From: Methylobacterium terrae | Lineage (GTDB): Bacteria > Pseudomonadota > Alphaproteobacteria > Rhizobiales > Beijerinckiaceae | Assembly: GCF_003173755.1 (NCBI RefSeq) | Contig: NZ_CP029553.1 | Coordinates: forward strand, 4,964,001 to 5,028,000 | Direction of reading: 5' to 3' | Length of the DNA: 64,000 nucleotides | Shown: positions 14,872 through 25,090 of the stretch, piece by piece | Numbering within the stretch: the stretch's first letter is position 1 | Layout of the letters: each line of letters begins with the position of its first letter | Translations under genes and position numbers: made by a program | Notes under the pieces: model-generated | What the model was told of the DNA's origin: nothing | The model's input: the letters and a program-made list of their open reading frames with translations, nothing else | Databases searched by the model: none

Positions 14872-16602
14872 ATGGGCCAGGAGTTCCTGGGCAAAGGGTC
14901 GAGCGCGATGGATCCGAACACCCCGCCGCGGCCCTGGCTCGCCGCCTATCCGGCCTCCGTCCCGGCCGAGATCGAGACGGACCGCCTCGGCACCCTGGTC
15001 GACCTGATCGAGACCGCCACGCGGCAATTCGCCGACCGCCCGGCGATCACCTGCTTCGGGGCCTCCCTGACCTTCGCGGACCTGCGGCGCGAAGGCGAGG
15101 CGATGGCGGCCTGGCTCCAGGGCGAGGGCATCGGCAAGGGCGACCGGGTCGCCCTGATGATGCCGAACGTGCCGGCCTTCCCGATCGCCCTCGTCGGCGT
15201 GCTGCTCGCCGGCGCCACGGTCGTCAACGTCAACCCGCTCTACACCCCGCGCGAACTCACCCACCAGCTGCGCGATGCCGGCGCCCGGGTGCTGGTGGTG
15301 CTGGAGAATTTCGGCCGCACGGTCGCCGAGGCGCTGCCCGAGCTGCCGGGCCTCGAGCGCGTCGTGGTGGCGGGCGCTGGCGACGGGCTCGGGCTGAAGG
15401 GCTCGCTCGTCACCCTGGCGGCGCGCCACCTCAAGAAGGCGGTGCCGGCCTTCGATCTGCCGGAGGCGCGGCGCACGGGCTTCAAGGCGGCGCTGGCGGC
15501 CGGGCGCAAGGCGACCTTCCGGCCGGTCGCGGTGTCTCCCGACGATCTCGCCTTCCTGCAATATACTGGCGGCACCACCGGCGTGTCGAAGGGGGCGATG
15601 CTCACGCACCGCAACGTCGCCGCCAATGTCGAGCAGAGCCGGGTGTGGTTCGGCATGCGCGACGACGAGGGCCCGGGCCGGGTGATGGTGACGGCGCTGC
15701 CGCTCTACCACATCTTCGCGCTGACCTGCTGCTTCTTCTTCATGCTGCGGCTCGGCGCCTGCTGTCTGCTGGTGCCGAACCCGCGCGACATCCCCGGTTT
15801 CGTCGCGCTGCTGCGCAAGAGCCGGTTCACCAACCTGTCGGGCGTCAACACGCTGTTCAACGCGCTGCTGAACCACCCCGACATCGGCAAGGTCGACTGG
15901 TCGCGGCTCGAACACGCCATCGCGGGCGGCATGGCGATGCAGGGGCCGGTGGCCAAGCGCTGGAAATCCGTCGCCGGCAAGCCGGTGATCGAGGGCTACG
16001 GTTTGTCCGAGACCTCGCCCGTGGTCTCGATCAACCCGCCGACCCTGCACGACTGGTCCGGTACCATCGGCTACCCGGTCTCCTCGACCGAGGTCTGCAT
16101 CCGCGACGCCGCCGGCACCACCCTGCCGGCGGGCCAGCCCGGCGAGCTCTGCGTGCGCGGGCCGCAGGTGATGGCCGGCTACTGGGGAAGGCCCGACGAG
16201 ACCGCCCGGGCGATGACCCCGGACGGCTTCTTCCGCACCGGCGACGTCGCGGTGATCGAGCCCGACGGGCAGGTCCGCATCGTCGACCGGATGAAGGACA
16301 TGATCCTGGTCTCCGGCTTCAACGTCTACCCGAACGAGGTCGAGGACGTGCTCGCCGCCCATCCGGGCGTGCTCGAGGTGGCGGTGGTGGGCGAGCCCGC
16401 GGCGGAGACCGGCGAGAGCGTGGTCGCCCACGTGGTGCGCCGCGATCCCGACCTCACCGCCGAGGCCCTGCGCGCCTACGCCCGGGAGGGCCTGACCGCC
16501 TACAAGGTGCCCCGCCGCTTCGTCTTCCGCGACAGCCTGCCGAAGACCAATGTCGGCAAGGTGCTGCGGCGGGCGCTGCGGGAGGGGGAGGCGGTGGGGT
16601 AG
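14872..16602 (+). CDS. fadD: Long-chain-fatty-acid--CoA ligase
   Basis: A 576-residue adenylate-forming enzyme activating fatty acids to acyl-CoA via acyl-AMP. The P-loop-like motif YTGGTTGVSKGAM is at about 235-247, followed by YGLSETSP, the hinge region with FFRTGDVAV and VDRMKDMILVSGFN, and a C-terminal lysine motif PKTNVGKVLRR. FadD-type ligases act peripherally at the inner membrane, feeding beta-oxidation or phospholipid synthesis. The ATG at 14872 has a GGGGAGGA site upstream; a second Met 12 codons later is an alternative. Whether medium- or long-chain acids are preferred cannot be read from sequence. Confidence 0.9.
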   Translation: MGQEFLGKGSSAMDPNTPPRPWLAAYPASVPAEIETDRLGTLVDLIETATRQFADRPAITCFGASLTFADLRREGEAMAAWLQGEGIGKGDRVALMMPNVPAFPIALVGVLLAGATVVNVNPLYTPRELTHQLRDAGARVLVVLENFGRTVAEALPELPGLERVVVAGAGDGLGLKGSLVTLAARHLKKAVPAFDLPEARRTGFKAALAAGRKATFRPVAVSPDDLAFLQYTGGTTGVSKGAMLTHRNVAANVEQSRVWFGMRDDEGPGRVMVTALPLYHIFALTCCFFFMLRLGACCLLVPNPRDIPGFVALLRKSRFTNLSGVNTLFNALLNHPDIGKVDWSRLEHAIAGGMAMQGPVAKRWKSVAGKPVIEGYGLSETSPVVSINPPTLHDWSGTIGYPVSSTEVCIRDAAGTTLPAGQPGELCVRGPQVMAGYWGRPDETARAMTPDGFFRTGDVAVIEPDGQVRIVDRMKDMILVSGFNVYPNEVEDVLAAHPGVLEVAVVGEPAAETGESVVAHVVRRDPDLTAEALRAYAREGLTAYKVPRRFVFRDSLPKTNVGKVLRRALREGEAVG

Positions 16603-16678: not shown

Positions 16679-16700
16679 CTCTCCCCGCCCGCGGGGAGAG
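16679..16700. repeat. Solitary copy of the 22-bp CTCTCCCC palindrome
   Basis: CTCTCCCCGC-CCGCGGGGAGAG forms a near-perfect 22-bp palindrome. The same palindrome bounds the long-hairpin elements at 22627, 22849 and 48417. It lies between the convergent ends of fadD and soxZ and could act there as a bidirectional mRNA end structure. Confidence 0.85.
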
Positions 16701-16764: not shown

Positions 16765-17085
16765 TCACCCCACGGTGATCCCCATCTCCTCCGTCTGCGA
16801 GAACCCGTTGTCGCCCGTCCAGGTGAAGCGCAGCGTCCCGGTCCTCGTCGCGACGGTGGTGAAGGTCAAGTAGGGGTTCGCCGCGCTCGCGGGCGACAGT
16901 TCGGCGCGGAACACCTCCTCGCCGTCGTAGGTGCAGACGAACTCGGTGATGATGTTGCGCGGAATCAGGCGGCCGTCCGGGCCGGGGCGGTAGCCGGTCT
17001 CCATCGGGTGCGAGATCAGGGTCTTGACCTCGATCACCGCACCGGGTTTCGCGGTCTTCGGCAGGTTGATGAGGGCGCGGGCCAC
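16765..17085 (-). CDS. soxZ: SoxZ sulfur-carrier chaperone/partner
   Basis: A 106-residue protein matching SoxZ, a small immunoglobulin-like beta-sandwich that pairs with SoxY in the periplasm and guides its sulfur-carrying C-terminal arm into partner enzymes. Recognisable segments are VIEVKTLISHPMETGYR, NIITEFVCTYDGEEVF and a C-terminal TFTWTGDNG-type strand (here RFTWTGDNGFS). It has no signal peptide, as is usual for SoxZ, which is exported with SoxY. The GTG start lies 4 nt after the soxY stop with a GAGGG ribosome site inside soxY. It is the last gene of a seven-gene operon. Confidence 0.9.
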   Translation of the reverse strand: MARALINLPKTAKPGAVIEVKTLISHPMETGYRPGPDGRLIPRNIITEFVCTYDGEEVFRAELSPASAANPYLTFTTVATRTGTLRFTWTGDNGFSQTEEMGITVG

Positions 17086-17089
17086 GGCG

Positions 17090-17557
17090 TCAGCCCTCCA
17101 CGCAGGCGGCGAGGGTCACGATCGCGTCGGCGGTCGCGGACCAGAAGGTGCCGTCGCTGAGTGCCGCGATGGCCGTGATGGTCTGGGAATCGGCCAGCCG
17201 GATCCGGGTGTTGATTGCGGCGCGGCCGGACCGGGGGCCGAGATGCAGCGTGACCACGTGGGGCTGCGGGTTCTTGTCGTTGAACACCGCGATCCGGCGC
17301 ACGTGGTCGTCCTCGCTCATCGGGCTCTCGACGGCGATGGCGAGCGGCACGGTGTTGCCGTTCTCGACCAAGGGCGGCATGTCGAGGTGGATCCGGCCGG
17401 CCCGGACCGTCGCACCGCCGGTAAAGCGACGGATCGCCTCCACGGTCGCCTCGCGGGTCGGGCGGATGATCGCGGCCGCCCCCGGGCGGACCAGCGCCAG
17501 GGTCACGAGGCCGGCGGCTCCGGCGAGGATGGTGCGGCGGTGGATCTCGGCCGTCAT
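17090..17557 (-). CDS. soxY: SoxY-type thiosulfate/sulfur carrier protein with atypical C terminus
   Basis: A 155-residue exported protein with a twin-arginine-like leader (HRRTILAGAAG) and a SoxY beta-sandwich. In canonical SoxY, sulfur intermediates are carried on the Cys of a C-terminal GGCGG arm. Here the chain ends TLAACVEG, so a single Cys (residue 152) is retained close to the end but the glycines around it are changed. That keeps carrier function plausible while altering the flexible swinging arm. The ATG overlaps the soxX stop by 4 nt. SoxB, SoxA and SoxCD, which normally act on the carrier, are not encoded in the window. Confidence 0.82.
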   Translation of the reverse strand: MTAEIHRRTILAGAAGLVTLALVRPGAAAIIRPTREATVEAIRRFTGGATVRAGRIHLDMPPLVENGNTVPLAIAVESPMSEDDHVRRIAVFNDKNPQPHVVTLHLGPRSGRAAINTRIRLADSQTITAIAALSDGTFWSATADAIVTLAACVEG

Positions 17558-18000
17558 GGCGTCGCGGCCCCTCCCTTCAGGGTGACGAGATAGGCGATCA
17601 CGTCCTCGATCTCGCCCGCTTCTAGCACCGGCCGGCCGCGCCAGGCGCTTGCGACCCGCGTGCCGTCGGTCCGGTAGTAGGAGGGCATCAGGGACGCCGG
17701 GTTCAAGACGCGCCCGTCGACGAGGCGCAGGCGCAACCGCCCCGCGGACAGCCGCGCCCCGACATCGGCGAGGTCCGGCCCGAGGTCGCCCGACGGCGCG
17801 GTGCCGCCGAGGCCGGTATGGCAGAGCGGGCACAGGCCCTTGCGGGTGTCGGTGGCGATGGCCCGGCCGCGTTCCGCGTCTCCGGTCCGGCCGTCGAGCG
17901 GGTCCGGGATCGCGTCGCCGACGATGGTCACCGGGCTCGGAGGCGTCTGGGCGTGCGCGGACTGCGTCAGGGCGAGGAGCACGGCGAGCCCGCGCCTCAC
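17554..18000 (-). CDS. soxX: SoxX-like monohaem cytochrome c
   Basis: A 148-residue protein with an N-terminal signal peptide ending near AHAQ, one haem c motif CPLCH and a distal SoxX-type segment NPASLMPSYYRTDG whose Met is the likely sixth haem ligand. In Sox systems SoxX pairs with dihaem SoxA to attach sulfur substrates oxidatively to SoxY. No soxA lies here, so SoxX may instead take electrons from the neighbouring flavoprotein or molybdoenzyme. GTG start overlaps the fccB stop by 4 nt, and its own stop overlaps soxY. Confidence 0.85.
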   Translation of the reverse strand: MRRGLAVLLALTQSAHAQTPPSPVTIVGDAIPDPLDGRTGDAERGRAIATDTRKGLCPLCHTGLGGTAPSGDLGPDLADVGARLSAGRLRLRLVDGRVLNPASLMPSYYRTDGTRVASAWRGRPVLEAGEIEDVIAYLVTLKGGAATP

Positions 18001-19289
18001 CCGAACACCGCGGCGGTGATCGTGCGGTACCAATCCTCGGCGTAGGCCGCCTCCTGCCGGCGTACCTCGCCGCCGGCATCGAGCGGGCTGGTGCCGCCGG
18101 CACCCTCGACGTCGGCGAGCACGCCGTTCGCCGGGTGGTACACGCCGGCGACCGAGATGCCGTAGCCCGGCGCGACGAGGCTGTAGCAGGTGTTGACGAG
18201 CTTCGGGGCCGCGGGCTTCCGCTCCGCCAGGAGGTCGATCACCGCCTCGGCGCAGACCTTGCCCTGCGCATTGGCCGCGAAGGCGGATTTCGGCATCGCG
18301 CCCGCGATGGCGGCGTCGCCGATGACGTGGATGCGCGGCACGAGGCGCGATTCGAAGCTGACCGGGTCGATCGGGCACCAGCCGGAGCGGTCGGCGACGC
18401 CGGCGGCCGTCGCGATCGGGGCGGCGCGCTGGGGCGGGATGATGCAGGCGACGTCGGCCTTGTGGGTCGCGAAGTCCGTCGCGACGCTCATCGCGCGGGA
18501 ATCGACCGAGGCGACCTGGCCCCCGGCGGCGAGAGGCACGTATTCGAGCACGTCGGGATAGAGATGGGTCCACGCCTGCTCGAACAGCTTCTGCTTGGAG
18601 AAGGTGTCCTTGGCGTCGAGCACGATCAGCTTGGCGCGGGGTTTGCGGGTCTTGAGGTAGTAGGCGATCAGGCTCGCCCGCTCGTAGGGGCCGGGCGGAC
18701 AGCGGTAGGGATTGCCCGGCACCGACAGCACCACCGTGCCGCCCTCGGGCATGGCGGCGAGCTGCCGGGCGAGCCGCTCGGTCTGCGCGCCCGCCTTCCA
18801 GGCATGGGGCATCGCCTGCGAGGCCGCCTCGTCGTAGCCCGGCAGGGCATCGAAGCGGAGCGCGATGCCGGGCGAGAGGATCAGCCGGTCGTAGTCGAGG
18901 GTCCGCCCGTCGGCGAGGCGCACCTGCCGGGCGGCCCCGTCGACCGCCTCGGCGCTGGTTCGCGCGATCGTGACCCCGCTCGCCCGCAAGTCCTCGTAGC
19001 CGAACGCTTGCGCCGACATCGGCCGCAGGCCCGCGATCACCTCGTTGCTGAACGGGCAGGCCCAGTAGGTCTCCGCCGGCTCGACCAGGGTGACGGTGAG
19101 GCCCGCCCGCTGCAGGATCCGCGCCGCGGTGGCGCCGCCGAAGCCGCCGCCGACCACGACGACGCGCCCGGGGGCTCCTTGCGCCAGGGAGGGACGGGGG
19201 AGGGCGGCGGCGGCGAGCCCCGCCAGCACCGCCCGGCGGCCGATCACGGTCGCTTGCCGCGTCACTTGCCGGATCACTTGGCGCGTCAC
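17997..19289 (-). CDS. fccB: Flavocytochrome c sulfide dehydrogenase flavoprotein subunit (FccB/SoxF type)
   Basis: A 430-residue Tat-exported flavoprotein (GRRAVLAGLAAA leader) that oxidises sulfide, or a related reduced-sulfur group, in the periplasm and passes electrons to a cytochrome c. It has the FAD-binding VVVGGGFGGATAA, YWACPFSNEVIAG, and the two redox-disulfide segments YRCPPGPYERASLIAYYL and GWCPIDPVSFES. All of these match flavocytochrome c rather than generic NADH oxidases. The likely GTG start shares 4 nt with the stop of the preceding cytochrome c gene. That junction lies in a 12-bp tandem repeat offering alternative GTG starts at 19277 and 19265, so the exact N terminus is uncertain by a few residues. 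Confidence 0.9.
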   Translation of the reverse strand: MTRQVIRQVTRQATVIGRRAVLAGLAAAALPRPSLAQGAPGRVVVVGGGFGGATAARILQRAGLTVTLVEPAETYWACPFSNEVIAGLRPMSAQAFGYEDLRASGVTIARTSAEAVDGAARQVRLADGRTLDYDRLILSPGIALRFDALPGYDEAASQAMPHAWKAGAQTERLARQLAAMPEGGTVVLSVPGNPYRCPPGPYERASLIAYYLKTRKPRAKLIVLDAKDTFSKQKLFEQAWTHLYPDVLEYVPLAAGGQVASVDSRAMSVATDFATHKADVACIIPPQRAAPIATAAGVADRSGWCPIDPVSFESRLVPRIHVIGDAAIAGAMPKSAFAANAQGKVCAEAVIDLLAERKPAAPKLVNTCYSLVAPGYGISVAGVYHPANGVLADVEGAGGTSPLDAGGEVRRQEAAYAEDWYRTITAAVFG

Positions 19290-19297
19290 TTGCCGCC
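19253..19297. repeat. 12-bp tandem repeat across the cytochrome c / fccB junction
   Basis: Units at 19253, 19265 and 19277 read CTTGCCGCGTCA, CTTGCCGGATCA and CTTGGCGCGTCA, with a partial fourth from 19289. On the coding (minus) strand each unit carries AAGTGA, reproducing the overlapping stop-start. The repeat encodes VTRQ-VIRQ-VTRQ at the FccB N terminus. Confidence 0.85.
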
Positions 19298-19555
19298 CCC
19301 CGCGATCCACTCGGCGATCGCCCGGCTCTCGCCCTCCGAAAAACCCTTGGCGATGCGGTTCATCACCGTGGCGGGCTTCGCACCCGTCCGGAACGCCGCC
19401 AGCGAGGCCGCGATGTCCTCGGCCGAGTGGCCCGACAGGCTCGGCACCGCCCCGCCCGGGGGCCCGTGGCAGCCCGAGCAGGACGAGGCGCCCGGCGGCG
19501 AGGCCGCCGCCGGGCCCGCGAGCACCAGGAGCAGGAGGAGGGGAACGCTCCTCAC
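19286..19555 (-). CDS. Small class I cytochrome c (FccA-like position)
   Basis: An 89-residue exported monohaem cytochrome with a hydrophobic signal peptide (residues 1-19) and a single haem-binding motif CSGCH (in SSCSGCHGPP). A distal MNRIAKGFSEGES region contains a possible Met axial ligand. It sits directly upstream of fccB, the position of the cytochrome partner in flavocytochrome c, and directly downstream of the molybdoenzyme large subunit, so it could accept electrons from either. GTG start overlaps the preceding stop by 4 nt. Confidence 0.85.
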   Translation of the reverse strand: MRSVPLLLLLVLAGPAAASPPGASSCSGCHGPPGGAVPSLSGHSAEDIAASLAAFRTGAKPATVMNRIAKGFSEGESRAIAEWIAGGGK

Positions 19556-21735
19556 GCGCGCTTCAGGTCCGTGCGGCTCGCCGGGATCTGCCGCACGCGC
19601 TTGCCGGTGGCGGCGAAGACCGCGTTGAGGACGGCCGGCGCCGCCACCGCGATCGTCGGCTCGCCGACGCCGCCGATGAAGCCGCCCGACGGCATCAGGA
19701 TCGCCTCCACCGCCGGCATCTCGTCGAGGCGCAGGACCGGGTAGGTGTCGAAGTTGGTCTGCTCGATGCGGCCGTCCTTCACCGTGCACTCGCCGTAGAG
19801 CGCCGCCGACAGCCCGTAGACGAACGAGCCGGCGACCTGCGCGTCGATCTGCTGCGGGTTGATCGCCACGCCGGGATCGGTGGCGGCGACGATGCGGTGG
19901 ACCTTCACCTTCCCGTCGTCAGCCACCGAGACCTCCGCCGCCGCCGCCACGTAGCTGCCGAAGCCCATGATCTGGGCGAGGCCCCGGTGCAGGCCGGCCG
20001 CCGGCTTCGTGTCCCAGCCGATCCGCTCGGCCACCGCGTTCAGGACGGCGAGGTGCTTGGGGTGCTTCCCCATCAGCTTGCGCCGGAAGGCGAGCGGGTC
20101 CTGTCCGGCCGCGTGCGCCACCTCGTCGAGGAAGCATTCGAGGTAGATCGCGTTCGGGTTGGTGTTCACCCCGCGCCAGAAGCCCGGGATGATCGGCGGG
20201 TTGCGCATCGCGTGGTCGATGAGCAGGTTCGGGATCGTGTAGCCGATCGCGGCTTCCGCCCCGCCGGGGTTGAGGCCCTGGAACACCACCGGGTCCTTGC
20301 CGTCGGGCCCGAGCCGTCCCGGGATGATGCCGGCCAGGATCGACTGGCCGGAGATCCGCATGTGCAGGCCGGTGAGGTTGCCGGCCTCGTCGAGGGCCGC
20401 CCGCATCCGGCACTGGGTGACCGGGTGGTAGCGGCCGTGGGTCATGTCCTCCTCGCGGGTCCAGATCAGCTTGACCGGGGTGCCGGGGAGTTCACGCGCG
20501 ATCAGCACCGCCTGGCGCACCCAGTCGTGGGTGGCGCCGCGCCGGCCGAAGCCGCCGCCGAGATGGATCTTGTGGACGTCGCATTGCCGCGCCGAGAGGC
20601 CGGAGGCCTCCGCCGCCGCGGCGAGCGCCGCCTCGCCGTTCTGGGTCGGGGTCCAGACCTCGCACCTGTCCGGCGTCCAGCGCGCCGTGGCGTTCATCGG
20701 CTCCATCGTGGCGTGGTTCTGGAACGGGTAGGCGTAGGTCGCCTCGACCACCCTGGCGGCGCCCTTCAGGGCGGCCGCCGCGTCCCCGCCCTTGTTGCCG
20801 ACGAAGGCCTCCGGCGCGTCGAGCCCCTCGCGCAGGGTCGCGGCGATCGTCTCGCTCGACACCCCGGCGTTCGGACCCTCGTCCCAGACGATGGTCAGCG
20901 CCTCGACGGCCTTCTTGGCGCGCCAGAACGTGTCGGCGACGACCGCCACCGCGCTGTCGCCGACCCGCACCACCTTGCGCACGCCGGGCATCGTCTCGAC
21001 CGCCGCCGCATCGACGCTCCTCACCGTGCCGCCGACCACCGGGCAGTCGCGGATCGCGGCGTTGAGCAGGCCCGGAAGCCGGAGGTCGATGCCGTAGACC
21101 TGCGAGCCGTCGGTCTTCTCCAGCGTGTCGAGGCGCTTCACCGGGTGTCCGGCGATGATCCAGTCCTTCGGATCCTTGAGGGCTACGTCCTTCGGCGGCT
21201 CCATCCGGCCGGCCGCGGCCGCGACCTTGCCGAAGGTCGTGGAGCGGCCCGAGGCCGGATGGCCGATGACGCCCTTCTCGACCCGGCACTCGCCGGGCGG
21301 CACGCCCCATTCCTGCGCCGCCGCCGCGACCAGCATGGTGCGGGCGGCGGCACCGCCCTGGCGCACCGCGACGTAGGATTCGCGGATGCCGCGGCTGCCG
21401 CCGGTGGAGAAGTCGCCCCAGACCCGGCCGCGGGCGAGGTTCTGGCCCGGCGTCGGGTACTCGGTCGTGACCCGGGCCCAGTCGCAGCCGAGCTCTTCCG
21501 CCACGAGCTGGGCGAGGCCGGTGAGCGTGCCCTGGCCCATCTCCGAGCGGGCGATGCGGATCACCACGGTCTCGTCCGGGCGCACCACCACCCAGGCGTT
21601 GATCTCGGGCGGGGCCCCGGCGGGGGCCGCGGCGGCCCCCGGCAGGTCGAAGCCGAGGGCGAGGCCGCCGGCCGCGGCGGCGGAGCCGGCGAGGAAGAAG
21701 CGGCGGGAGAGGGCGGGGGAGACGGTCGTGGTCAT
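19552..21735 (-). CDS. Xanthine-oxidase-family molybdopterin-binding subunit (isoquinoline 1-oxidoreductase IorB-like)
   Basis: A 727-residue Mo-containing hydroxylase/dehydrogenase large subunit. It begins with a twin-arginine leader (SRRFFLAGSAAAAGG), placing the enzyme in the periplasm. Family landmarks include SEMGQGTLTGLAQLVAEEL, the FGRRGATHDW loop that contacts the cofactor, and the C-terminal GGVGEPTIAVAAPAV with the catalytic Glu692. The architecture without FAD or NAD domains matches IorB and nicotinate-dehydrogenase-like enzymes that donate electrons to cytochromes. The substrate could be an N-heterocycle or an aldehyde; sequence alone does not tell. ATG at 21735 has a GGGAGG site, and the gene is 12 nt from the 2Fe-2S subunit gene. 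Confidence 0.88.
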   Translation of the reverse strand: MTTTVSPALSRRFFLAGSAAAAGGLALGFDLPGAAAAPAGAPPEINAWVVVRPDETVVIRIARSEMGQGTLTGLAQLVAEELGCDWARVTTEYPTPGQNLARGRVWGDFSTGGSRGIRESYVAVRQGGAAARTMLVAAAAQEWGVPPGECRVEKGVIGHPASGRSTTFGKVAAAAGRMEPPKDVALKDPKDWIIAGHPVKRLDTLEKTDGSQVYGIDLRLPGLLNAAIRDCPVVGGTVRSVDAAAVETMPGVRKVVRVGDSAVAVVADTFWRAKKAVEALTIVWDEGPNAGVSSETIAATLREGLDAPEAFVGNKGGDAAAALKGAARVVEATYAYPFQNHATMEPMNATARWTPDRCEVWTPTQNGEAALAAAAEASGLSARQCDVHKIHLGGGFGRRGATHDWVRQAVLIARELPGTPVKLIWTREEDMTHGRYHPVTQCRMRAALDEAGNLTGLHMRISGQSILAGIIPGRLGPDGKDPVVFQGLNPGGAEAAIGYTIPNLLIDHAMRNPPIIPGFWRGVNTNPNAIYLECFLDEVAHAAGQDPLAFRRKLMGKHPKHLAVLNAVAERIGWDTKPAAGLHRGLAQIMGFGSYVAAAAEVSVADDGKVKVHRIVAATDPGVAINPQQIDAQVAGSFVYGLSAALYGECTVKDGRIEQTNFDTYPVLRLDEMPAVEAILMPSGGFIGGVGEPTIAVAAPAVLNAVFAATGKRVRQIPASRTDLKRA

Positions 21736-21747
21736 GGTGGCCTCCCG

Positions 21748-22215
21748 TCAGCCGCGGCCGGTCTCGCCGCCCTCGGCGGCGAGGGTGATGCCGGCGAGCA
21801 CCCGGTTGTAGGTGCCGCAGCGGCAGATGTTGGTGATCTCCTGGCGGATCTCCGCCTCGTTCGGCTTCGGGTTCTGCGCCAGCAGGGCGGCGGCGGCCAT
21901 GATCATGCCGGACTGGCAGAAGCCGCATTGCGGCACGTCGAGCGCCGCCCAGGCCTTCTGCACCGGGTGCGAGCGGTCGGGGCTCAGGCCCTCGATGGTG
22001 ACGATCTTCTGGCCCGGCTCGACGCCCGAGACCGGCAGCGAGCAGGACCGCACCGCCTGCCCGTCGATATGGACCGTGCAGGCGCCGCACTGGGCGATGC
22101 CGCAGCCGTACTTGGTGCCGGTGAGGCCGACCTGCTCGCGGATCACCCAGAGCAGCGGCGTGTCGGGCTCCGCCTCGACCTCGCGCACGGACCCGTTCAC
22201 GTTCAGGCGTATCAT
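21748..22215 (-). CDS. 2Fe-2S subunit of the molybdoenzyme (IorA-like)
   Basis: A 155-residue protein with a plant-ferredoxin-type cluster (Cys38, Cys43, Cys46, Cys58 in YGCGIAQCGACTVH and SCS) and a second [2Fe-2S] domain (Cys97, Cys100, Cys131, Cys133 in QCGFCQSGM and CRCGTY). It has no signal peptide, as expected if exported in complex with the Tat-tagged large subunit. It relays electrons from the Mo centre to a cytochrome. The ATG at 22215 was chosen since the family begins a few residues before LNVNG; it is the first gene of the seven-gene operon ending at soxZ. Confidence 0.9.
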   Translation of the reverse strand: MIRLNVNGSVREVEAEPDTPLLWVIREQVGLTGTKYGCGIAQCGACTVHIDGQAVRSCSLPVSGVEPGQKIVTIEGLSPDRSHPVQKAWAALDVPQCGFCQSGMIMAAAALLAQNPKPNEAEIRQEITNICRCGTYNRVLAGITLAAEGGETGRG

Positions 22216-23200: not shown

Positions 23201-25090
23201 TCATGTCCGCTCCGCCACCGTCTTGCCCCCGTGCTTCTGGCGCAGCGCGTCGATCTGCTCCTCGGCCTGGCGGAAGGCGGCGAGGGCTTGGCCCGTCAGC
23301 TCGCGGGCGCTCGGCAGGCGGATCTTCATCGGGTCGACGAAGCGGCCGTTGATCGCGACCTCGTAGTGCACGTGCGGGCCCGTCGAGAGGCCGGTGGTGC
23401 CGACCGCGCCGATCACCTGGCCGAGGCGCACCCGGGCGCCCGGCGCGACGCCGCGGGCGATCCGGGCCATGTGGTTGTAGGCGGTGGTGTAGCCGTTGGC
23501 GTGCTGGATCTCGACCCGGTTGCCGTAGCCGGAGCGGGCGCCCGCCGACACGATGGTGCCGTCGCCGGTCGCCATGATCGGGGTGCCGCGGGTCGCCGCC
23601 CAGTCGACGCCGTTATGCGGCCGGTAATAGCCGAGGATCGGGTGCAGGCGGGCGCCGAAGGGCGAGGAGATCCGCCCCTCCGCCACCGGGCGCCGCATCA
23701 GGAATTTCTGGCTCGAGCGGCCGTTCGGGTCGAGGTAGTCGATCTCGCCCGAGCCCGGCACCCGGTAGCGGTAGAGGCCGAGGGTCTCGTCGTGGATGCG
23801 CAAGGCCACGTAGAGGAGCTCCGGCCGGGCATCCTCGTCCTCGGTGAAGAACAATTCGGCCCGGTCGCCCGCCCCGGTGCGCTGCTGCAGGTCGGTGGAG
23901 GTGGCGAGCGCCATGACCATCTCCTCGATGATCGGGCGCGGCACGCCGTTCTTGAGCGCGGTGCCGTAGAGGCTCTCGTAGAGGGTGACGCCGGTTTCCT
24001 CGTCGTCGTCCGGCGCGGTGCCCGGCCGGGGCGGCGCCACCGAGACGAAGGCGCCGCGGTCGTTGGCCGCCACGATCTCCTGGATGCCGTCCTCGCCGTA
24101 GAGCGTGACGCGGGCGATGCCGCGGGCCTCCGGCGCGTGCCCGTCGCCCTGCGGGGCGATGAGCAGGCGCACGTGCTGGCCCTCGGGCAGGTCGCCCTTC
24201 GCCCGGGCGCTCAAGGCGGCGAGCATGGCGGAGAGCCGCGCCGGCTCGGCGCCGTTGCGCTTCAGGAGATCCTCGAGGCCCTGGTCCTTGGCCAGCACGA
24301 GGTCGCGCTCCTCGAACAGCGGCGGGCCGGGCTGGCCCGCGGCCGGGCCGCCGGTGCCGGTCTCGGCGATCTCGGTCAGGTTCTCGGGGAGGATCCGCAC
24401 CTCGATGTTGCGGAAGCGCGCCTCCGCGGCGGATTCGTCGGGCAGGGCGGCCGGCCGCAGGGCGCGGGAAAGCAGGCGCTCGGCCGGGAAGGCCGGCGGC
24501 AGCGTCCCGCCCGCGAGCGTCAGCGTCTCGGCCACCAGGGCGTCGACCTCGGCATCCGCGAGGGCGGGGGCGCCGTCCTCGATCGGCGCCTCGGCGAGCG
24601 GGCTGCGCACCAGGGTGACGGCGGTCTCGGCCGGGTCCGAATCGCCCTCCTGGGGCGGCGGCGCCTCGATCCGGGCGCTGCGCAGGGGATCGAAGGGCGG
24701 CACCGGCACGTCGGGCGCGCGCAAGGGCAGCTCGGTGGCGATCTGCACGTAGGAATGGACGCGGATCACCTCGCGGTCGCCGGCGCGCTCGGTCATCGGT
24801 GCCTTGAAGGCGGTCTTCGCCGCGACGATCATCTCGTCGCGCACTAGCCGGTCGCCCTTGCGGGCGACGTCGCCGCTCCCGCCCTCGCCGTGGGGCGTCA
24901 CCGCCCGCTCCGGGGGCGCCGCGACGATGCCGTCGGCGGCGGCGAGGTAGAGCGCGACGCCGATCAGGCCGGCGCCGGTGACGCCGGTGAGCAGGCTGCC
25001 GGCGAGCCAGCGCAGGTTGAGGGCCTGCCGGGGCGCCGCCGTCGCGGCGGAACCGGGGAGGGAGGGCGCGTCGACGAACACTCTCGGCAA
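23201..25090 (-). CDS. M23-family (LytM) cell-wall endopeptidase, membrane-anchored
   Basis: A 629-residue protein with one N-terminal transmembrane segment (about 29-52), a long variable periplasmic region with a LysM-like or opacity-type stretch, and a C-terminal M23 domain. Zn ligands and catalytic residues are visible in PFGARLHPILGYYRPHNGVDWAA (His and Asp, separated by spacing typical of the family) and in GPHVHYEV (His573 and His575). Such enzymes cut peptidoglycan cross-bridges or act as regulators of cell-wall hydrolases. The start is uncertain: TTG at 25090 or GTG at 25081; neither has a clear ribosome site. Confidence 0.85.
   Translation of the reverse strand: MPRVFVDAPSLPGSAATAAPRQALNLRWLAGSLLTGVTGAGLIGVALYLAAADGIVAAPPERAVTPHGEGGSGDVARKGDRLVRDEMIVAAKTAFKAPMTERAGDREVIRVHSYVQIATELPLRAPDVPVPPFDPLRSARIEAPPPQEGDSDPAETAVTLVRSPLAEAPIEDGAPALADAEVDALVAETLTLAGGTLPPAFPAERLLSRALRPAALPDESAAEARFRNIEVRILPENLTEIAETGTGGPAAGQPGPPLFEERDLVLAKDQGLEDLLKRNGAEPARLSAMLAALSARAKGDLPEGQHVRLLIAPQGDGHAPEARGIARVTLYGEDGIQEIVAANDRGAFVSVAPPRPGTAPDDDEETGVTLYESLYGTALKNGVPRPIIEEMVMALATSTDLQQRTGAGDRAELFFTEDEDARPELLYVALRIHDETLGLYRYRVPGSGEIDYLDPNGRSSQKFLMRRPVAEGRISSPFGARLHPILGYYRPHNGVDWAATRGTPIMATGDGTIVSAGARSGYGNRVEIQHANGYTTAYNHMARIARGVAPGARVRLGQVIGAVGTTGLSTGPHVHYEVAINGRFVDPMKIRLPSARELTGQALAAFRQAEEQIDALRQKHGGKTVAERT

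Follow-up and report, generated by a model that had tools for sequence, protein, structure and literature searches.

What could a molybdenum (Mo) hydroxylase and a sulfide dehydrogenase be doing in one operon with the sulfur carrier of a Sox system? The question is raised by a locus of Methylobacterium terrae, from whose 6.16 Mb single-contig genome (G000 in our sample) we analysed a stretch of 64,000 nucleotides, bases 4964001-5028000, referred to below as the window. At positions 22215-16765 of the window, seven genes lie on the minus strand in the order iorA, iorB, fccA, fccB, soxX, soxY, soxZ, and profile matches bear out the families that a preliminary description, made from the letters alone, had given them in that order. 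The same description counted five tight junctions; the tightness is confirmed but not the number, since all six are tight (+12, -4, -4, -4, -4 and +4 nucleotides from iorA to soxZ, the start of fccB being uncertain). From comparison with other genomes we consider it very probable that IorAB, SoxX, a SoxY with an AACxE arm, SoxZ and SoxA make up one inherited periplasmic system, with FccAB as an add-on and no need for SoxB or SoxCD.

Conservation of the gene order

When relatives of IorB were collected, we kept the best 80 of at least 586 confirmed ones, of which 63 have at least 5.2 kb of downstream sequence and 17 are too short. IorB, SoxX, SoxY, SoxZ and SoxA follow one another in 58 of the 63 loci, and IorA was seen in 57 of these, being cut by a contig end in L109. 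Three further loci, from the clade of the window (L078-L080), lack an adjacent SoxA only, and two, from Inquilinus (L116) and Reyranella (L151), have no sox genes nearby; SoxXYZ can still be seen in seven of the 17 short loci. The best 80 come from Methylobacterium, Enterovirga, Microvirga, Bosea, Mesorhizobium, Bradyrhizobium, Belnapia, Siccirubricoccus, Reyranella, Pseudorhodoferax, Methylibium, Roseateles, Duganella, Massilia and others, and one from a Rokubacteria metagenome-assembled genome (MAG). The core iorA-iorB-soxX-soxY-soxZ-soxA, to which fccAB may or may not be added, is found in both Alpha- and Betaproteobacteria, and complete operons were found elsewhere in the Reyranella genome and the Rokubacteria MAG.

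Starting from SoxY instead, the profile TIGR04487 was matched over its cut-off in 15 of the 398 genomes of a phylum sample, the window genome included, a count by cut-off that a divergent SoxY such as that of G055 (see below) would escape. All 14 other genomes contain the whole six-gene core and 10 of them FccB. Four of the 14 are Polynucleobacter, represented by one genus code, whose genomes of 1.7-2.1 Mb carry the bare six-gene core (L207-L210); the SoxY of one of them (G309) is identical to a P. ibericus protein. The preliminary description had suggested looking for the seven-gene order in other genomes and had held that its absence from relatives would speak against a dedicated pathway. 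The order is conserved in relatives: all seven genes are collinear in 11 of the 13 other Methylobacterium carriers, the exceptions being G011, where the operon is split by contig ends, and G035, where it occupies two loci.

The same pairing appears when whole genomes are compared. With an ortholog threshold of E at most 1e-190, IorB was found in 15 of 61 related genomes, which are G055 and the 14 that match TIGR04487 over its cut-off; it was found in none of the remaining 46. The SoxY of G055 is divergent (129 bits, below the cut-off, with the arm GACVDGG) and lies beside IorAB and SoxA. Since the 61 genomes are related, they are not independent trials, and the splits, together with the wide taxonomic spread, are a stronger argument for co-inheritance than this count. 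In G035, IorAB-FccAB is found at 3.40 Mb (L181) and SoxXYZA at 7.63 Mb (L032), and both halves have been kept. We excluded the possibility that the genes are chance neighbours on the strength of the 58/63 loci, the co-occurrence in 15/61 genomes and the 14/14 SoxY-seeded genomes. Nor can the order of all seven genes be chance, because it is kept across many genera and because every gene is under purifying selection (ratio of nonsynonymous to synonymous substitution rates, dN/dS, of 0.09-0.37 against five close relatives). The earlier proposal that the set acts as a functional unit apart from thiosulfate Sox is thus upheld by the conserved order and by the co-occurrence of IorB and SoxY.

Some genomes hold more than one copy of parts of the set. 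In addition to its full operon, Reyranella carries another IorAB-FccB that has no sox genes with it (L151, L182), and on the Rokubacteria contig (L183) a first IorB-like gene is followed about 9 kb downstream by another.

The carrier, SoxA and classical Sox

The gene that most clearly distinguishes the operon is soxY (17090..17557, minus strand as for all seven genes). Its product matches PF13501 and reaches 216.8 bits for TIGR04487, the 'SoxY-related AACIE arm protein' (cut-off 172), as against 101.2 bits for the true SoxY of TIGR04488 (cut-off 125), and it ends in AACVEG, not in the classical GGCGG. Its nearest named relatives are from Methylobacterium. By its profile scores the protein is therefore assigned to the AACIE-arm family; it is SoxY-like, as had been described, but not a thiosulfate SoxY. 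Across the operon-type loci the arm motif (A/S/P/G)-A-C-x-(E/D) is found in 84 of 84 (82 distinct sequences), with alanine before the cysteine in all 84 and, two residues after it, glutamate in 75 and aspartate in nine, while GGCGG terminates the SoxY of 24 of 24 canonical loci (14 distinct sequences). These are counts of loci and not of independent events (L035 and L080 are identical, as are L044 and L083), and an 85th SoxY-like match, in L130, was left out because it is a different gene on a contig that stops before the operon SoxY. A tree built from 37 operon and 15 canonical rows (two canonical pairs being identical) sets the operon type on one side of a branch that has 100/99 support and is present in 100% of bootstrap trees. 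An acid close to the arm thiol, where the classical carrier has glycine, would disfavour the doubly negative thiosulfate.

The partner gene soxZ (16765..17085) scores 84.3 bits for TIGR04490 (cut-off 76) and matches PF08770; SoxZ trees separate the operon type less well than SoxY trees, with one change in 63% of bootstrap trees. The monohaem cytochrome c encoded by soxX (17554..18000), with LCPLCH and ASLMPSYY in its translation, reaches 60.5 bits for TIGR04485, which is 0.5 bit under the cut-off of 61.

The operon had been described as being without soxA, and this is true of the locus itself. However, SoxA is matched over cut-off elsewhere in the genome (TIGR04484, 179 bits, G000:C1:6082231-6082785) and comes after SoxZ in almost every related operon whose sequence extends far enough; on this comparative evidence SoxA is part of the IorAB-SoxXYZ system. 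The gene near 6.082 Mb (L029:10088-10788) reads in two frames, with the N-terminal part and the remainder in different ones, which reflects either an assembly error at that place or an impaired system in this strain of M. terrae; its larger piece has a dN/dS of 0.27 against G020. SoxA is over cut-off in 30 of the 61 related genomes. Of the 13 other Methylobacterium with TIGR04487, 10 have it directly after SoxZ, and three that are close relatives of the window genome (G012, G015 and G020) have it on a separate contig. In these three SoxA is open, and in all four genomes it adjoins genes for the alpha and beta subunits of nitrile hydratase. As G035 has SoxXYZA followed directly by nitrile hydratase genes, an ancestral SoxXYZA-nitrile hydratase order that was broken at different points is suggested. 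Nitrile hydratase was considered and rejected as a general partner, as it stands beside SoxA only in these five genomes (G000, G012, G015, G020, G035) among the loci searched, and thiocyanate hydrolase was likewise rejected (alpha subunit 187.6 bits against a cut-off of 291; nitrile hydratase 301.6 against 250). The operon-type SoxA of all 75 loci has two CxxCH motifs, and in 74 of them the active cysteine lies within RRxRxC, the 75th being cut by a contig end; the SoxA of G035 aligns over its full length with the solved diheme SoxA 1h31.

The operon is INDEPENDENCE from classical Sox, for the window genome's best matches to SoxB and SoxC reach 128 and 156 bits, against cut-offs of 550 and 420 respectively. 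The described lack of soxB and soxCD thus holds genome-wide for SoxB and SoxC, neither of which is over cut-off, while no search was made for SoxD; nor was there found elsewhere in the genome the full soxABCD set that, according to the preliminary description, might use this SoxYZ. Fifty IorB-bearing genomes, corresponding to 50 of the best 80 loci, have SoxB over cut-off in 16, SoxC in 21 and neither in 29, and many of them are drafts or MAGs, so that absences are upper bounds. The set includes Inquilinus (49 genomes without it), which has SoxC but not SoxB over cut-off, and L102, with a truncated operon. Within Methylobacterium, four of the 14 carriers have SoxB over cut-off. We therefore rejected the idea that SoxYZ serves a canonical Sox system in trans. 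What the set shares with the classical Kelly-Friedrich system (SoxXA-YZ-B-CD) is the SoxYZ carrier, a SoxX-like cytochrome and, in the wider system, SoxA, a periplasmic location and a link to cytochrome c; it differs in having no SoxB or SoxC over cut-off in the window genome, AACVEG in place of GGCGG, and a Mo-hydroxylase of another family.

The gene set itself has been seen before. Starkeya novella carries a second sox cluster, soxX2Y2Z2A2F2 (Snov_1982-1977), next to a Mo enzyme of the xanthine oxidase family (Snov_1975/1976) and, as far as the consulted part of the paper describes it, without SoxB or SoxCD (Kappler et al. 2013, PMC3797975). According to the same part of that paper, neither SoxAX nor SoxYZ of this cluster could be detected as protein, one SoxF-like subunit was present at a low level, and transcription was very weak with glucose, methanol or thiosulfate. 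Compared by description and not by sequence, the two clusters share SoxX, SoxY, SoxZ, SoxA, SoxF and the Mo enzyme, but in the genome studied here SoxA has been separated from the rest and FccAB is placed between IorB and SoxX; the S. novella cluster was moreover reported from a single organism, as gene copies with no obvious role, and the consulted part takes up neither the arm motif nor how far the cluster is conserved (PMC3797975).

Could the operon, then, be made up of surplus or degenerating copies of sox genes, which only assist a canonical Sox system at another place in the genome or are idle? In S. novella the low expression would fit, as would the 'no functional significance' that the authors of that study suggested (in the portion of PMC3797975 consulted); so would the two-frame SoxA of the window genome. 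The comparative data largely refute this, and we regard it as very improbable, given the purifying selection on all seven genes, the retention of the core in the small Polynucleobacter genomes, the 34 of 50 IorB-bearing genomes that are without SoxB over cut-off, and the unlinked halves that are both kept in G035.

A different possibility is that IorAB substitutes for SoxCD, oxidizing SoxYZ-bound sulfane sulfur of inorganic origin, from sulfide or thiosulfate, with another hydrolase, such as a SoxH-like one, freeing sulfate or sulfite. The Mo enzyme sits where SoxCD would, SoxA has kept its active-site cysteine, and a SoxH-like gene is present in the genome (163 bits for TIGR04558, whose cut-off is 300); SoxH is said, in the part of PMC11237559 that deals with it, to replace SoxB in Sulfurimonas. 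We nevertheless find this quite unlikely, as the operon is without a hydrolase gene, its carrier has an acid instead of glycine by the arm cysteine, and canonical SoxB also occurs in 16 of the 50 IorB-bearing genomes, which argues against a plain substitution. In Bradyrhizobium japonicum a mutant in soxY2 reportedly kept growing on thiosulfate, which would be a further argument if soxY2 is of the AACIE type. The very low expression of the S. novella cluster on thiosulfate (PMC3797975, as far as consulted) also counts against it.

IorAB, FccAB and their possible chemistry

The first two genes encode a [2Fe-2S] subunit, iorA (21748..22215, ATG at 22215, 155 amino acids, PF01799 with E = 8.8e-28 and PF00111, collinear in relatives), and a molybdopterin subunit, iorB (19552..21735, 727 amino acids, PF02738 and PF20256). 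IorB has a twin-arginine translocation (Tat)-type leader, SRRFFLAG, together with GVGE, which contains the catalytic-type glutamate E692, and GGGFGRR. Thus the [2Fe-2S] subunit, the MoCoBD_1/2 subunit, the catalytic glutamate and the leader are all present, and IorAB is predicted to be a Mo-hydroxylase of the xanthine oxidase family, IorAB type. GVGE and GGGFGRR are kept in 93 of 93 loci and a Tat-type motif, searched by pattern, in 75; E692 was invariant in 10 of 10. These features are those of IorAB/AldFGH-type enzymes (isoquinoline 1-oxidoreductase and the aldehyde dehydrogenase 8gy3), which have the same two kinds of subunit, Tat-type leader and GVGE, but the window operon is without a multihaem cytochrome subunit of its own and has SoxXYZA as a regular partner.

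Between iorB and soxX lie fccA (19286..19555), for a small monohaem cytochrome c of 89 amino acids (PF13442, 27.6 bits against a cut-off of 27), and fccB (17997..19289), for a flavocytochrome c sulfide dehydrogenase (FCSD) flavoprotein (PF21706, E = 4.2e-45; PF09242, E = 2.6e-26). The start of fccB may be the GTG at 19289, 19277, 19265 or 19247. A 12-base tandem repeat in four copies (19249-19296) occupies the fccA/fccB junction, that is the start of fccB, and its extra units are missing in M. terricola and M. platani. FccB aligns with 5n1t_A (E = 5.3e-128) and keeps both redox cysteines (RCPP and TCY), so that the FCSD domains and the two flavoprotein cysteines of FccAB/SoxF are present; the differences are the small size of the cytochrome and that FccAB is optional in the wider system.

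The preliminary description had made FccB a core step, which the comparison does not support, since no FccB was found near 26 of the 58 complete loci or near the core in four of the 14 SoxY-seeded genomes. Where present, it may lie between IorB and SoxX (in most such loci preceded by an fccA-like gene), after SoxA, on the opposite strand or, once, upstream, and a tree places the FccB found beside the operon in at least two and probably three divergent lineages in different positions. The opposite-strand FccB of Bosea joins, with support of 100/100, a protein of SoxF type whose gene lies close to a canonical cluster, at a point where long branches meet, and L047, which was left in the tree, is probably not an FccB. 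Such recurrent recruitment points to sulfide or persulfide chemistry.

The first interpretation of the operon was that IorAB hydroxylates a free thio-heterocycle or thioaldehyde, that the sulfide freed is oxidized by FccAB and that SoxYZ accepts the product. The chemistry of the IorAB family and the presence of FccB near 32 of the 58 complete loci and in 10 of the 14 genomes are in line with this, but FccB is optional whereas SoxA is nearly universal, and the Polynucleobacter core has no adjoining FccB, the rest of those genomes not having been searched for it. The intact SoxA of the relatives also argues for the loading of SoxYZ by SoxAX and against mere acceptance of sulfur from FccB. A neighbour that would name the substrate, whether a transporter or a catabolic gene, was common to most loci in no case; beyond the core the most widespread type is an ATP-binding cassette (ABC) ATPase, in 24 loci and at varying positions, and dipeptide-type ABC transporters, named from translations, lie near some loci, again at varying positions. 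We judge this interpretation improbable. The four Polynucleobacter loci have purU convergent with soxA, which is near the operon in no other of the 108 loci searched.

If SoxAX and the carrier have been kept and a Mo-hydroxylase has replaced the releasing and oxidizing enzymes, the most economical interpretation is that the arm, once loaded by SoxAX, is the target of IorAB, and as enzymes of its family hydroxylate carbon, the adduct would most likely contain carbon. SoxAX, with its active-site cysteine, would oxidatively join a reduced sulfur compound to the arm cysteine of SoxY, as it does with thiosulfate, the compound probably being an organic thiol or sulfide and not thiosulfate. IorAB, exported by its Tat-type leader and standing in place of classical SoxCD/SoxB, would then oxidize the carrier-bound adduct, hydroxylating carbon with water; the C-S bond would open, leaving a persulfide on SoxY, and electrons would pass to c-type cytochromes. 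FccAB, where present, could take on the sulfide or persulfide sulfur. We infer the compound loaded, the contact between IorAB and the arm, and the leaving product alike, and we hold the mechanism, in which SoxAX loads organic sulfur and IorAB oxidizes the adduct, only tentatively. A related case is that of thiophene carboxylate, in which a Mo-hydroxylase starts the release of sulfur from an organic ring.

Several observations weigh against this mechanism or against the system behind it. The usual substrates of Mo-hydroxylases are small molecules that are free and have sp2 carbons, and we know of no precedent for such an enzyme acting on a protein-tethered adduct. The only SoxA found in the window genome is the one in two frames; operon-type SoxA keeps arginines near its cysteine, so that an anionic substrate such as thiosulfate could still be accommodated, and it does not form one clade in the best SoxA tree (two changes, or one in 73% of bootstrap trees), where the very long branches of two canonical rows that were left in (L046, L048) blur the separation. 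Inquilinus limosus has IorAB (71%) but no AACIE-SoxY over cut-off. As to FccB, besides its absence from many loci, both cysteine motifs are present in 49 of 53 hits, but one only in three and neither in one. Finally, the authors of the S. novella study suggest, in the part consulted, that the cluster is without functional significance or serves under other conditions (PMC3797975).

A serious rival, though one that we think unlikely, turns the relation round, with SoxXYZA serving IorAB and not the reverse. IorAB would then be an ordinary periplasmic dehydrogenase of aldehydes or heterocycles, maintained or protected by SoxXYZA and FccAB, either because sulfur from SoxYZ restores a lost sulfido ligand of the Mo or because poisonous sulfur species are removed. 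The strict pairing of IorB with SoxXYZA would be expected, and the nearest solved chain to IorB by sequence, 8gy3_C, is the large subunit of an aldehyde dehydrogenase. Enzymes of the xanthine oxidase family bear a sulfur ligand on Mo (PMC2997495, as far as consulted), and a precedent exists in the fused SoxYZ-like carriers that stand with SoxH and rhodanese beside pyrroloquinoline quinone (PQQ) alcohol dehydrogenases, for which maturation or protection is proposed in the consulted parts of PMC12997753 and PMC11237559. On the other side, four other IorB-like loci of the window genome have no SoxY match nearby, and the sources consulted, in the parts concerned, have this family of Mo enzymes matured normally by XdhC-type chaperones. 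SoxAX and the repeated recruitment of FccAB also seem costly for such a purpose. Moreover, XdhC-type maturation takes place in the cytoplasm, before export.

The quinoprotein-associated carriers (TIGR04557; SoxYZ-S2/S4 in the part of PMC11237559 consulted) are likewise thiol carriers of SoxYZ type tied to a periplasmic dehydrogenase, but they are fused and stand beside PQQ enzymes and SoxH, whereas here SoxY and SoxZ are separate genes (65.3 and 37.5 bits for TIGR04557, both under 140) accompanied by SoxX, SoxA and a Mo-hydroxylase. A set resembling them is present at G000:C1:3855194-3863540, where a SoxYZ-like match of 44 bits lies about 7 kb from the SoxH-like gene.

Surroundings, earlier reports and meaning

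The flanking genes, an acyl-CoA-ligase-type gene (14872-16602) and a peptidase-type gene (23201-25090), both named from translations, seem unrelated to the operon. Between 16000 and 23500 neither RNA families nor promoters were found, and there is one terminator-like site against 1.8 expected. A 22-base near-palindromic repeat, for which zero copies are expected by chance, occurs at 16679, 22627, 22849, 23018 and 48587; one copy lies just downstream of soxZ and three upstream of iorA, so that the operon is flanked. Counted within the window, the repeat looks like a repetitive extragenic palindromic (REP)-type element. Two tRNA-Leu(gag) genes lie near each other on the minus strand, at 1138-1222 and 1399-1483. 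In other genomes a response-regulator and sensor-kinase pair, named from translations, is found near the operon (L101, L148, L150, L151, L152, L094); it is divergent from iorA in Mesorhizobium and is a candidate regulator.

In Polynucleobacter, three SOX clusters have been reported, one of four genes, and a possible use of H2S was inferred (Hahn et al. 2012, PMC3308952, in the part consulted); we suspect that the four-gene cluster is the SoxXYZA of the present system. SoxY has been sorted into four clades with six arm signatures, and no AACIE arm is among those named in the consulted part of that work (PMC11237559). The name of the TIGR04487 family carries no function, and the link to IorAB and SoxA is added by the present analysis. 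In the literature searched we found no description of the distinct carrier, its conservation, its regular pairing with IorAB or its spread.

The Sox-derived system is real and conserved and probably functional, and the sulfur on its carrier is most likely organic, the chemistry being what we propose and not what we observed. Whether it amounts to a widespread periplasmic pathway, in which SoxAX tethers organic thiols or sulfides to SoxYZ and a Mo enzyme of the xanthine oxidase family splits carbon from sulfur, is a bolder idea that we put forward with considerable doubt. Genomes with the operon may pass as thiosulfate or sulfide oxidizers through the annotation of soxA, soxX, soxY, soxZ and fccB, and the arm motif (A/S/P/G)AC-x-(E/D) with an IorAB neighbour tells them apart at once. 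A set once suggested to be functionless in one organism is strictly co-inherited in the sampled genomes, and its function is directly testable. As the hosts are soil- and plant-type genera and freshwater Polynucleobacter, the identity of the substrate would bear on the turnover of organic sulfur in the environment.

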